Shown here: positions 9,740 to 60,254 of the stretch, piece by piece
Layout: every line of letters starts with the position of its first letter
Numbering within the stretch: the stretch's first letter is position 1
Assembly: GCF_004354985.1 (NCBI RefSeq)
Contig: NZ_SMSK01000007.1
Span: 1-64,000, forward strand
From: Segetibacter sp. 3557_3
GTDB lineage: Bacteria > Bacteroidota > Bacteroidia > Chitinophagales > Chitinophagaceae
Direction of reading: 5' to 3'
DNA: 64,000 bases
Translations under genes and position numbers: made by a program
Notes under the pieces: model-generated
The model's input: only the letters and a program-made list of their open reading frames with translations
Database searches by the model: none
What the model was told of the DNA's origin: nothing

Positions 9740-9780
9740 GTACAAGTGTGCGACGCAAGGATGAATCATCTCAGCCCTAT
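9740..9780 (+). repeat. Dispersed intergenic repeat, copy 1
   Basis: GTACAAGTGTGCGACGCAAG begins a degenerate copy of the repeat whose core elsewhere reads GTACAAGTGAGTGACACAAC. It lies between the convergent DUF2911 and UbiD genes. Confidence 0.55.
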
Positions 9781-18445: not shown

Positions 18446-18502
18446 ATTCGGTTTTAAGGTATTAAGGTATTGAGGTATTGAGGTATTAAGGTATTAAGGT
18501 AC
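18446..18502 (+). repeat. GGTATTRAG simple tandem repeat
   Basis: Several imperfect copies of a 10-base word (GGTATTAAGG / GGTATTGAGG) directly follow the mntH stop and open an 870-bp non-coding region that runs to the icd gene. Confidence 0.7.
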
Positions 18503-18534
18503 AAAGAGTACCAGTACCTGGCGTACGAACCCCG

Positions 18535-18570
18535 TTTTACATTTTGCATTTTACATTTTGCATTTTTTTT
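18535..18570. repeat. TTTTACATTTTGCA repeat, gene-less copy
   Basis: Two tandem copies of TTTTACATTTTGCA followed by a T-run. The same words form the ends of the four-helix-bundle cassette at 58.5-58.9 kb, but here no gene is attached. It abuts a copy of the dispersed intergenic repeat. Confidence 0.65.
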
Positions 18571-18574
18571 GTGA

Positions 18575-18621
18575 CCGGCAGTAGTTCCTCCTTCGGCTCC
18601 GGTTGTGTCACTCCCTTGTAC
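18575..18621 (-). repeat. Dispersed intergenic repeat, copy 2
   Basis: On the minus strand this reads GTACAAGGGAGTGACACAAC and continues; the first 30 bases match the copy at 57.18 kb in 28 positions. Its 47-bp length and its CCGGCAGTAG end are shared with the copy at 55.87 kb. Confidence 0.75.
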
Positions 18622-18669
18622 TTGCAAATCTTTACTCGGCGACTGCTGTTGTTCCACCTTAACCCACCG

Positions 18670-19010
18670 CAAATGGGAGAAGCCGCGTTGCTACAGGTAA
18701 GCGGATCCATTGCGCATTACGGATTGCGGATTGGCGAATTGGATAATCGCTGCAAATGGAAGAACCCGCGATGCTACAGGGAAGCGGATCTATCATCGAA
18801 TTACGGATTGCGGATTGGGGAATTGGATATTCCCTGCAAATGGAAGAACCCCCGTTGCCACAGAGAAGAGGATCCATTGGCGGGTTAGGGATTGCGGATT
18901 GGCGAATTGGATAATCGCAGCGAATGGGAGAAGCCGCGTTGCTACAGGTAAGCGGATCCATTGCGGATTACGGATTGCGGATTGGCAAATTAGATAGTTG
19001 CATCAAATGA
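18670..19010. repeat. Tandem array of ~84-bp units
   Basis: Four imperfect direct repeats begin near 18669, 18752, 18836 and 18920 (period 83-84 bp), with a decayed fifth from about 19003. Each unit carries AATGGGAGAAGCCGCGTTGC, a GGATCC-containing stretch and GGATTGCGGATTGGCGAATT. No credible protein is encoded; open frames across it only reflect the repeats. Confidence 0.8.
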
Positions 19011-19139
19011 GAAGCGGAATTGCGTGCGGAAGAGGATCATTGAGCGGATTAGGAAATACGGATCCTACTCGAAAAAACAATTCATTAAGCTCAGTAAGCT
19101 GTAGAGCAATGCACGTCATCCTGAACCACGTCTGAGTTC

Positions 19140-19200
19140 ACATGTTCTCACTTTTGAATTTTTACTTTTGACTTTTTACTTTTGCCATTTGACTTTTGCC
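19140..19200 (+). repeat. ACTTTTGAC-type simple repeat
   Basis: A T-rich low-complexity run with repeated ACTTTT words closes the repeat island before the icd promoter. Confidence 0.5.
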
Positions 19201-19235
19201 TTTATAACCGGCCGCCTCAAAGAAAGTTTCTTCCA

Positions 19236-33359: not shown

Positions 33360-33560
33360 GCATGGCGGATTGTGGATTGGCGGATTGCGGATTGGAGAAA
33401 GGTGGTAAGGGTATTGGGTATTGAGTGATTGGGTATTGAGGTATTGGGGATTGAGACAATGGCGGATTACGGATTGGCGGATTGCGGAAAGGTAGTATGG
33501 GTATTGAGGTATTGGGTATTGGGTATTGGGTATTGGGTATTGGGTATTGAGGGGTTGAAG
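33360..33560 (+). repeat. GGATTGCGGATTGGCGG and TATTGGG repeat island
   Basis: Interspersed copies of GGCGGATTGCGGATTGG-type words and GGTATTGAGG-type words, ending in five perfect tandem TATTGGG units at 33510-33544. The same words make up the repeat island at 18.4-19.0 kb. It fills most of the 543-bp gap between the PKD gene and the carboxypeptidase; the first ~230 bp of that gap holds nothing I recognise. Confidence 0.75.
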
Positions 33561-55864: not shown

Positions 55865-55911
55865 CCGGCAGTAGCTCTTTTCCCGGCAGCCGTTGCGTCG
55901 CACTCTTGTAC
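55865..55911 (-). repeat. Dispersed intergenic repeat, copy 5 (inside the nuo cluster)
   Basis: Minus strand starts GTACAAGAGTGCGACGCAAC; ungapped over 47 bp it matches the 18.58-kb copy at 34 positions, including the CCGGCAGTAG end. It sits in the 303-bp gap between nuoH and nuoI; the rest of that gap holds nothing else I recognise. Confidence 0.7.
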
Positions 55912-57336: not shown

Positions 57337-58470
57337 CTACTCAGCCTGTTGGTTCGATCCGTTGTTGAATACCGCACCCGTTGCCGGACCCTCAATCCTG
57401 CTCAGTTCAATATGTGGTTCATTAATCTCGCTCACCTTATGTATGTCCATCAGCAACCTGGGTTTTCTACCGTCATGAACTGCCGAAAAGATTTCATTGG
57501 GTTTTTTTACTCCTACATAATGGCCCGCAGAAATCACGGATTGCCTGCTAATCTTGCGTGGTCCTTCAATAATCCAGTCGCTGGTTTTCTTTTTCTCGAA
57601 ACGGCACGTGTTACAGATCCAACCGGGCTTGCCATCATAGCTTTCCACTTCACCCCATTTGTCTTTCCGGGAAGTGACCCTGTACACTTCTTCCCCACGG
57701 TTCCAAAGGGTTACCTTTCCACAACATTTATCACAATCGCGGTGGGCATCGAGTGGTTTTAGGAACCACACCCTGTTTTTAAACCGGAACGTACGGTCTG
57801 TTAATGCACCAACGGGGCAAACGTCAATCATGTTGCCGCTAAAGTCGTTATCAATTGCTTTTGAGATATAGGTTGAGATTTCGGCGTGTTCTCCGCGATC
57901 CAGTATACCATGTACACGTTTATCGGTCAGCTGGTCGGCAACATAAGTACAACGGTAGCACAAAATGCAACGCGTCATATGGAGCTGGATATAGGGTCCG
58001 ATGTCTTCACGTTCAAAAAGCCGGCGTTGAAATTCGTACCGTGTTCCGATATCCCCGTGGCCATAACTCAAATCCTGCAGGCTGCATTCACCGGCCTGGT
58101 CGCATATGGGGCAATCAAGCGGATGGTTCAGCAATAGAAATTCAACAATGTGCTTCCTGGCATCAATCACCTTTTCACTGGTGATATTTTTTACAATCAT
58201 CCCGTCCATCACATTCGTGCGGCAGCTTGCCACGAGTTTAGGCATCGGCCTGGGATCAGCCGTAGAACCTGCTGCAACTTCCACCAGGCAGGTACGACAT
58301 TTACCGCCGCTACCTTCAAGCTTGCTGTAGTAACACATCGCCGGCGGTGCAACATCCCCGCCAATCGAACGTGCCGCATTTAATATCGACGTCCCCGGCG
58401 CCACCTCAACCGTAATGTTGTCGATGGTGACTTTAAAAAACTGGGGAGGGTCCTTTTTAGTTTCTTCCAT
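57337..58470 (-). CDS. nuoG: NADH-quinone oxidoreductase subunit G, short form
   Basis: 377 aa, against 700-900 aa for classical NuoG. It keeps the iron-sulfur part: 2Fe-2S ligands C46, C58, C61, C83; H116-C120-C123-C129; and C168-C171-C174-C218. Two further Cys clusters follow (C246-C249-C250; C286-C289), which may bind an extra metal. The large molybdopterin-oxidoreductase-like domain is absent. The gene ends with its own stop and no frameshifted remnant follows, so this is a natural short form rather than a broken gene. Confidence 0.92.
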   Translation of the reverse strand: MEETKKDPPQFFKVTIDNITVEVAPGTSILNAARSIGGDVAPPAMCYYSKLEGSGGKCRTCLVEVAAGSTADPRPMPKLVASCRTNVMDGMIVKNITSEKVIDARKHIVEFLLLNHPLDCPICDQAGECSLQDLSYGHGDIGTRYEFQRRLFEREDIGPYIQLHMTRCILCYRCTYVADQLTDKRVHGILDRGEHAEISTYISKAIDNDFSGNMIDVCPVGALTDRTFRFKNRVWFLKPLDAHRDCDKCCGKVTLWNRGEEVYRVTSRKDKWGEVESYDGKPGWICNTCRFEKKKTSDWIIEGPRKISRQSVISAGHYVGVKKPNEIFSAVHDGRKPRLLMDIHKVSEINEPHIELSRIEGPATGAVFNNGSNQQAE

Positions 58471-58473
58471 TTA

Positions 58474-58506
58474 TAATGAAAAATGTAAAATGTAAAATGT
58501 AAAATA
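58474..58506. repeat. Cassette end, left inverted repeat
   Basis: AATGAAAAATGTAAAATGTA then two more TAAAATG units, between the nuoG start and the four-helix-bundle stop. It is the inverted counterpart of the repeat at 58881-58907. Confidence 0.7.
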
Positions 58507-58890
58507 TTAGTTTTTTGCCCTGATCAGGATACTTGCAATGATCTTTGAAATTTCGTTTGCCTCACTTATCAACTCCATCACCTTCTTTTCATTTACATCT
58601 AACGTATCTTTTATCAGGCATAACCAATATTTTGTTTCGTTTGCTGACTTCAAACTAATATGCATAAAGTTAACGAAGTCCTTATGGCTACTTTCGGCAC
58701 CCCCTTCAACCATATTGGCTCCAATCGAAGTTGAACTCCTGAGCAATTGATCGAACATGGAGTGGTATAATGGTTCGTATCTACAACTTCTTATAAAATG
58801 AATAATTTCTTTTGAAAAGTGAAAACACCGATGGCGGATATTGTAAGGCTTTTCACCTTCCTGAACCGTCTCAATTTTTTCATTTTGCAT
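58507..58890 (-). CDS. Four-helix-bundle protein, 23S rRNA intervening-sequence (S23/IVP) family
   Basis: 127 aa. The family pattern is plain: YNIRHRCFHFSKEIIHFI (helix 1), FDQLLRSSTSIGANMVEGGAE (helix 2 with the SxGANxxE signature), SHKDFVNFMHISLKSANETKYWL (helix 3) and a last helix ending IIASILIRAKN. Such proteins form homo-oligomers related to the Avd accessory protein of diversity-generating retroelements and are encoded in intervening sequences of some 23S rRNA genes; function is unknown. Here it is alone, wedged between nuoF and nuoG with AAAATG-type inverted repeats at both ends; the right repeat supplies its start codon. Confidence 0.9.
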   Translation of the reverse strand: MQNEKIETVQEGEKPYNIRHRCFHFSKEIIHFIRSCRYEPLYHSMFDQLLRSSTSIGANMVEGGAESSHKDFVNFMHISLKSANETKYWLCLIKDTLDVNEKKVMELISEANEISKIIASILIRAKN

Positions 58891-58907
58891 TTTTCATTTT
58901 ACATTTT
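58881..58907. repeat. Cassette end, right inverted repeat
   Basis: On the minus strand AAAATGTAAAATGAAAAATG then CAAAATG, directly after the nuoF TAG stop and running into the ATG of the four-helix-bundle gene. Confidence 0.7.
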
Positions 58908-60254
58908 CTACGCTGTTTCCAGCGGCTCCGCATACCTTCCTATACCATAGTTGCTTTTAAGGCAATCCTCGGGGTTCAAGACATGCCATTCGAATTCATC
59001 CCGGAAGTGACGTATTGCGGCAGCTACGGGCCAGGCGGCGGCATCACCCAACGGGCAAATGGTATTGCCTTCGATGTTCCGTTGAATATCCCACAACAAA
59101 TCGATGTCACTCATTTTGCCCTTTCCATATTCGATATTGTGCAGGATGCGCTTCATCCAGCCGGTGCCTTCACGACACGGTGAGCACTGTCCACAGCTTT
59201 CATGATGATAGAACCTCGCCAGTGACAGGGTATGACGAACAATACACTGATCCTCGTCCAGCACTTCAAAACCACCCGAACCCATCATCGAACCGGTTGC
59301 GAAACCACCATCAGATAAACTTTCATAATTCATCATCCGGGGTTCACCTTTAGCTGTTTTCAGCAGTAAGTTGGCCGGGAGAATGGGTACAGACGAGCCA
59401 CCCGGTATACATGCTTTAAGCTGCTTACCATTGGCAATGCCGCCACAATACTCATCGCTATAAATGAACTCTTCGACACTTATGGTCATGTCGATTTCGT
59501 ACACACCAGGCTTATTGATGTTTCCGCAGGCACTAATGAGCTTTGTTCCGGTAGACTTTCCTACACCAATCCTGGCGTATTCGGTACCACCCATATTCAT
59601 GATCGGCACTACCGCGGCCAGTGTTTCAACGTTATTCACCACGGTTGGAGAGTCCCATAAACCCTTAACCGCCGGAAAGGGCGGTTTGATTCGTGGATTA
59701 CCCCTCTTGCCTTCAAGACTTTCGATCAATGCTGTTTCCTCACCGCAGATATAGGCGCCGGCACCACGTTGAACATAGATCTGGCAATCGAAGCCAGTTC
59801 CCAGGATGTTCTTACCCAGGAAGCCATTTTGGTTGGCTTCTGCAATTGCCTGTTCAAGTATATCAACGATCCAGGCGTATTCACCACGAATGTATATGTA
59901 AGCACGATTACTGCCCAGTGCATAAGAGGCGATGATCATGCCTTCAATCAGCAAGTGAGGAATGAACTCCATAAGATAGCGATCCTTAAAAGTTCCCGGT
60001 TCACTTTCATCAGCATTACACACCAGGTAACGGGGAACACCTTCCGGCTTAGCAAGAAAACTCCATTTCAACCCTGTTGGAAAGCCCGCTCCACCCCGTC
60101 CACGCAAGCCACTCTTTTTTACCTCTTCCACAATATCGCCCGCAGCCAACTTCAGCGCTTTTTCGGCTGCTGAGTAGCCACCATTTTTCCGGTACGCGTC
60201 GTAAAAACGGATACCTTCAATATGATCGTTTGCCAATAATAATTTTATACCCAT
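58908..60254 (-). CDS. nuoF: NADH-quinone oxidoreductase subunit F
   Basis: 448 aa. Binds NADH and FMN ([13 protein letters not shown], residues 49-61; [28 protein letters not shown]) and carries the N3 4Fe-4S cluster through [15 protein letters not shown] (~residue 355) plus a later Cys in [12 protein letters not shown]. It receives electrons first in complex I and pairs with NuoE. Full length. Confidence 0.97.

Follow-up and report, generated by a model that had tools for sequence, protein, structure and literature searches.

The block that separates nuoF from nuoG in the DNA analysed here (the window, 64,000 nt of contig NZ_SMSK01000007.1 of Segetibacter sp. 3557_3) is probably an IVS-type cassette, that is, an S23 gene bounded by inverted arrays of 7-bp repeats and placed in sense between the genes of an operon (Table 1). 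The observation behind this reading, made in a preliminary description of the window, is confirmed and is wider than first noted. The view that the arms form part of the cassette unit is fairly well supported.

Table 1. Positions in the window of the nuoF-nuoG block, its neighbours and the gene-less array
Feature	Position	Strand	Remarks
nuoF	58908..60254	-	Complete; stop directly before the upstream arm of the S23 gene
Upstream arm, an array of the heptamer AAAATGN (read on the strand of the gene) that overlaps the start codon	58882..58907	-	Array 58876-58907
S23 / 23S-rRNA-IVP four-helix-bundle gene, 127 aa	58507..58890	-	Profile matches, model, PDB neighbours
Downstream arm, which repeats the upstream one in inverted orientation	58480..58505	+	Array 58475-58505
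nuoG	57337..58470	-	Pfam-supported; start few bases past the downstream arm
Gene-less array of the AAAATG-type unit family	18535..18566	+	In composite repeat region 18450-19203

Read along the minus strand, nuoF comes first, then the S23 gene, then nuoG. All three ORFs are open and look complete, with the nuoF and nuoG assignments backed by Pfam, in agreement with the initial view that the insertion removes nothing from the nuo genes. The product of the middle ORF matched PF05635 (23S_rRNA_IVP, E = 6.5e-23) and TIGR02436 (four helix bundle protein, E = 2.8e-25), which identifies it as the single S23/IVP-like gene that had been proposed to lie there. A Pfam search of this protein at E 0.001 returned PF05635 alone, and no catalytic domain was found. 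An AlphaFold2 model based on 14 aligned S23 proteins consisted of four helices (mean pLDDT 89.5), and its nearest solved structures were 2rld and 2gsc, S23-type proteins represented by five chains each. The next structural neighbour was the phage-DGR Avd 4dwl_C (TM 0.71/0.80, 12% identity, E = 0.029), so that the suggested relatedness to Avd holds as a likeness of fold. The protein is under purifying selection, with a median pN/pS of 0.30 over 19 pairs; for the pair of S23 genes at nuoF-nuoG the value was 0.17, with synonymous sites near saturation. Rfam gave at the locus a single sub-threshold snoRNA match (25 bits against a gathering threshold of 47), which we took as chance.

When the two arms of the gene were aligned in inverted orientation, 24 out of 26 columns were identical (score 42), a score that was reached by none of 2000 dinucleotide shuffles, the largest of which scored 37. 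Hence AAAATG-type repeats do flank the gene on both sides in opposite orientation, and the right-hand array does overlap its start codon, as stated in the preliminary description. The sequence TAAAATGTAAAATG, allowing up to 2 mismatches, occurred 12 times in the window compared to 1.66 expected, in the + orientation at the left array and in the - orientation at the right array. RNA folding of the block predicts pairing between the two arms (z = -2.84).

The genome of the window (G000) contains five S23 genes, and by eye all of them have inverted short repeats on both sides, each with a unit of its own; the fifth (G000e) was weak by flank score (26). The check proposed in the preliminary description, for AAAATG-type inverted repeats at other copies, thus succeeds as regards the presence of inverted repeats and fails as regards the AAAATG unit, since the heptamers are locus-specific. 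AAAATG as a universal end is therefore ruled out. PF05635 matches were present in all 10 genus genomes searched, with 2 to 13 per genome and 67 rows in total, of which 56 were used and 11 were left out (contig edges, fragments or scores below the cut-off). We scored each locus by comparing the left flank with the reverse complement of the right flank. The mean same-locus score of the 56 loci was 36.5, compared to 19.9 when the right flanks were permuted among loci (sd 0.60; largest of 2000 permutations, 22.9). Inverted flank pairs beat at least 99 of 100 shuffles at 39 of the 56 loci and failed this test at 17, while among other small ORFs, called like the neighbouring genes by a simple script, 5 of 116 passed it. 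Counted by ortholog group, 28 out of 34 had at least one member scoring at least 28, and when loci were placed at random in these genomes and given longer flanks, a score of 30 was reached in 0.47% of 6000 trials. Taken together, the permutation, shuffle, random-placement and control-ORF tests rule out a chance origin of the arm pairs.

In the genus loci, left and right flanks alike had autocorrelation maxima at 7, 14 and 21 bp, and the median length of the arms scoring at least 28 lay between 29 and 31.5 bp in the three sets of loci analysed. Near-perfect arms were found at 5 of the 56 genus loci; elsewhere they were imperfect. Direct-orientation similarity between flanks also exceeded chance, at 12 of 56 loci and more weakly than the inverted one, which tandem arrays on both sides would be expected to produce. 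Arms of different loci scored at background in the genus set. In orthologs, the same-locus arm score was 33.1 compared to 28.3 across orthologs (26 of 35 non-independent pairs), a weak hint that both arms may change in concert. As a separate observation, arm mismatches at 134 S23 loci of the three sets lean to A on the coding strand in both arms (A/T 198, T/A 111). In three species, moreover, groups of two or three S23 genes spaced by 1-1.5 kb occupy corresponding positions (L046, G008:C90; L038, G002:C3; L039, G001:C8).

A gene-blind scan for inverted pairs spaced by 240-1500 bp and scoring at least 36 was run over 864 kb, comprising the window, 400 kb of the genome of the window and 400 kb of G002. 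It yielded 5 pairs, 4 of which enclose S23 genes; in the fifth, long composite arrays surround a gene that, by reading, resembles a GH43-type glycosidase. One of the five S23 genes in the scanned DNA (G002:C1:155772) fell below the threshold. Close gene-less hairpins gave 2 matches in the same 864 kb of G000 and G002, both devoid of heptamer arms by eye.

The S23 arm layout recurs beyond the phylum. PF05635 was present in 113 of 148 sampled Bacteroidota genomes, with up to 15 matches per genome, and among the 30 best loci of this phylum set 21 beat at least 99 of 100 shuffles; this set and a second one from named genomes (79 usable loci of at least 80) contain best-scoring matches and are accordingly biased to the canonical subfamily. 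Among the matches listed for the named genomes, the same-locus score of the 79 loci was 32.7 compared to 18.4 after permutation (sd 0.53), the shuffle test was passed by 58 of the 79, and autocorrelation at lag 7 amounted to 0.38-0.40, compared to 0.27-0.29 at adjacent lags. Thirteen of the 17 listed loci labelled as non-Bacteroidota scored at least 28, although these labels may be wrong because nearly all of them belong to MAG contigs. Those at or above this score include, among the matches listed, Acidobacteriales, Anaerolineae, Alphaproteobacteria and Desulfosarcina, and those below it, again among the matches listed, are the loci of SAR324, Fibrobacter, one Opitutia and Anaerolineales.

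S23 genes sit in sense within operons. In the genus, 49 of the 54 S23 genes for which both neighbours were called shared the direction of the two, and 53 of 55 that of the upstream neighbour; the corresponding figures were 61 of 70 and 70 of 75 for the named loci, among the matches listed, compared to 52 of 116 and 72 of 116 for the control ORFs. In the genome of the window, the hosts include, besides nuoF and nuoG, a PreT-like/PreA-like pair and paaB-paaC.

S23 presence is patchy, with short empty gaps in relatives. A nuoG search in 59 genomes, including that of the window, gave a match in 47, and 30 loci were read. An S23 gene occupied the nuoF-nuoG junction in three of them (G000, G002 and G012), 15 had short gaps of 8-157 bp (two read by eye), and 6 had another gene or a long interval. 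The short gaps include those of the congeners G001, G003, G004 and G006, which measure 45-75 bp and hold no S23 gene, and these are the empty sites that the preliminary description proposed to look for. Neither of the outcomes that it named as refuting was observed: some relatives lack the gene, and repeats flank other copies too. The remaining 6 loci (G005, G010, G018, G019, G030 and G035) carry a PF13366 gene (GxxExxY, PDDEXK_3), identified by coordinates in five and separately in G005 (L060:1924-2289, minus strand); by coordinates, G020, outside the 30, has one too. By eye, the gaps of G001, G003 and G006 resemble what is left of the right arm of a GxxExxY gene. In a set of 28 of 30 GxxExxY loci, inverted flanks beat 99 of 100 shuffles at 18 and direct flanks at 10, with a period that is not 7 and a small peak at 9. 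Possibly GxxExxY is the second cargo that a similar unit can carry; it may also be an insert of another type.

Phylogenies of the two genes were compared at this junction. The nuoG tree, in which weak forks are numerous, does not place G000 and G002 as sisters. In the S23 tree the order is G012 (nuoF-nuoG), then G001 (other locus), then G000 together with G002 (nuoF-nuoG), with forks of 99/95 and 100/92 in a midpoint-rooted tree of few columns. The G001 copy lies between the genes for the large and small subunits of acetolactate synthase, and the nuoF-nuoG gap of this genome is 67 bp. This pattern is compatible with relocation of the S23 gene, duplication followed by loss being the alternative. 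The reading of 12 loci upstream of preA gave a one-sided array in G013, gaps of 7 and 14 bp in G015 and G041, and by eye a one-sided array in G001, with preT not found there; G040 was unreadable. Gene-less hairpins with repeat arms were also seen at preT-preA in G044 (L277) and G045 (L276), where the genome of the window has an S23 cassette. Among 25 regions read upstream of paaC, an S23 gene was found at paaB-paaC in G000, G002, G004, G016 and G019, which span three genera; in G043 it is located further upstream of paaC, and G017 has a gene-less hairpin at paaB-paaC by eye. These junctions in G044, G045 and G017 were the only places where gene-less heptamer hairpins were seen.

The arms of related S23 genes at different sites are partly similar. 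Among S23 genes, 55 pairs reached 45% identity or more; 28 of them have both neighbours in common and 27 have neither, and many S23 copies are inherited in place. Arm sharing in relocated pairs averaged 0.345 of the maximum (n = 18). This exceeds the 0.255 recorded for unrelated loci in different genomes (P = 0.0008, n = 624), and the value for orthologs was higher still (0.486, n = 13); in this comparison the pairs are non-independent and the flanks can include some codons of the gene. Neither a recent insertion nor a base-exact border was seen in the genomes compared. Mobility of the S23 cassette is supported, not proved. The mobile cassette of the preliminary description stands as a unit made of a gene plus inverted repeats, with empty junctions and a related copy in another operon, and falls as an AAAATG-specific transposon end.

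Heptamer arrays also occur away from S23 genes. The AAAATG-type unit family is found elsewhere in the genome of the window without an S23 gene, and the array at 18535-18570, taken at first for a possible scar, does exist as a repeat array; its reading as a scar of the cassette is not established, because it lies in a composite repeat region and the unit family is present elsewhere without S23. Two composite intergenic repeat regions, 18450-19203 and 33362-33557, were noticed in the window, holding the 8-mer GGTATTAA in 6.5 copies, several 7-mers, an 84-bp unit in 3.9 copies and a 97-bp unit in 2. Another intergenic string, CGTTGCGTCGCACTCTTGTAC, occurs at 55891-55911 and 9740-9760 (0 and 2 mismatches, respectively; 0 expected in the window) and by eye also near paaB-paaC in L012 and L280, and is possibly one of the dispersed repeats of this genus.

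Several explanations compete with the cassette reading. An S23 gene might have been caught between pre-existing dispersed heptamer arrays, or moved by recombination between arrays, in which case the arms would be a property of the site and not of a moving unit. In the 864 kb scanned there are 25 period-7 arrays, just 1 of which was flagged near an S23 gene (other periods from 5 to 10 gave 0 to 7 arrays), and for 12 of 16 arms the match to arrays from the same genome was better than to arrays from two congeners (mean 36.1 compared to 28.2; P = 0.0045). Since period-7 arrays are common away from S23 genes and arms match those of their own genome, the site may contribute to the arms. As a full explanation we find it rather improbable, because inverted pairs at the spacing of the cassette are nearly confined to S23 genes, because relocated related genes share arms beyond unrelated loci, and because arms of different S23 loci resemble each other no more within one genome than across genomes (0.240 compared to 0.255; P = 0.97). 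Less probable again is a resident post-transcriptional element kept by the host, in which the S23 protein would bind the stem of its own mRNA and tune the operon. It would account for the purifying selection on the protein, for S23 genes at paaB-paaC in five genomes of three genera and for the sense placement in operons; it fits poorly with the patchy presence at the same junctions and with units that differ between loci, which leave no common binding sequence apparent. A selected mRNA stem should, in addition, show an excess of G.U pairs among arm mismatches, and none was found: such pairs numbered 166 in sense and 219 in antisense at 134 loci (P = 0.008), an imbalance that points the opposite way, so that the wobble-pair test does not support selection on the stem.

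The inverted ends around a short and patchily present unit would also suit an IS-derived MITE that carries a passenger gene and depends for its movement on an IS transposase acting in trans at the terminal inverted repeats. The ends are tandem arrays of a locus-specific unit and so share no terminal sequence, and the arms are seldom near-perfect, which makes this origin very improbable. That the gene encodes a DGR accessory protein (Avd) is something we hardly consider credible, even though PF05635 is described as resembling Avd in the available part of PMC10053308. The likeness to DGR Avd (4dwl, 8ub7) is that of a four-helix-bundle fold alone, at 12% identity, and the gene has heptamer arms in place of template and variable repeats. 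The RVT_1 profile (E 1e-6) gave no match in the genome of the window and was found in 6 of 10 genus genomes, compared to all 10 for PF05635; nor was a reverse transcriptase with template and variable repeats found beside the S23 gene.

Under the preferred cassette reading, the arms would be the ends of the moving unit, and the hairpin that they may form, as DNA or as RNA cleavable by RNase III, would permit harmless residence in operons. The S23 protein might act on its own hairpin ends, and the moving step would need host or helper enzymes, because no Pfam catalytic domain was found in the protein. We can also envisage, tentatively and as something on balance unlikely, a more ambitious version whose four parts are to be read jointly: S23 genes and heptamer arrays might constitute one widespread class of transposase-free elements; the S23 protein, a relative of the Avd that serves a reverse transcriptase, might help its own transcript or strand, with hairpin ends, to be copied into transcribed junctions; it might rewrite both arms as mirror copies and seed the dispersed heptamer arrays of the host; and the rRNA IVS might represent one particular instance, with an rRNA gene as the target. 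A route through reverse transcription would require an outside helper, given that no RVT_1 match was found in the genome of the window. In Bacteroidota, S23/IVP genes are frequent and still lack an explanation. Should they prove to be cassettes bounded by inverted heptamer arms, the rRNA puzzle of an S23 gene inside a heptamer-bounded hairpin would become general. If true, this reading would tie the fold of a DGR accessory protein to a mobile or selfish role in a genome without reverse transcriptase, and would explain gene-sized inserts that come and go in core operons such as nuo and paa.

Among known systems, the REPtron (RAYT) is a gene for an HUH/Y1 transposase that has on either side, in inverted orientation, members of a repeat family also dispersed without the gene. 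The S23 gene likewise lies between inverted repeat copies, whose family may also be dispersed without it in the same genome: most arms match arrays of their own genome best, yet arms of different loci are not alike within a genome. The S23 unit, however, is a 7-bp tandem array and that of the REPtron a fixed palindrome, and the S23 protein, in which PF05635 alone was found, has no transposase domain of the HUH/Y1 kind. Dispersed tandem TAACTGA heptamers occur in intergenic DNA, including that of some Bacteroidetes (PMC4679880, a text in which 'S23' is absent); unlike the S23 arms, these are, in the part of that paper available, one fixed unit in mostly direct repeats. Our literature search, with most subscription papers outside its reach, returned no account of inverted heptamer arms at free-standing S23 genes, and the accessible parts of PMC8934634 and PMC10910872 hold nothing decisive on them. 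IVP ORFs have been described in rRNA insertions of CPR bacteria (PMC11270868, in part). The closest parallel is the IVS of 23S rRNA, which, according to the available part of PMC4990558, contains an S23p ORF, has terminal inverted repeats that form a 28-bp stem and is excised by RNase III; tandem heptameric repeats, variable in number between strains, precede the ORF, and cleavage takes place at the start of the first heptameric repeat. The cassette of the window shares with it a gene of the S23 family (PF05635, TIGR02436) of sporadic distribution, terminal inverted repeats of comparable length (26 columns here) and tandem heptameric repeats, and differs from it in lying in a protein operon, outside an rRNA gene, and in a heptamer unit that varies between the loci of S23 cassettes. 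Membership of the IVS proper fails on location, while the build of the cassette, as far as its sequence can tell, closely resembles that of an IVS.
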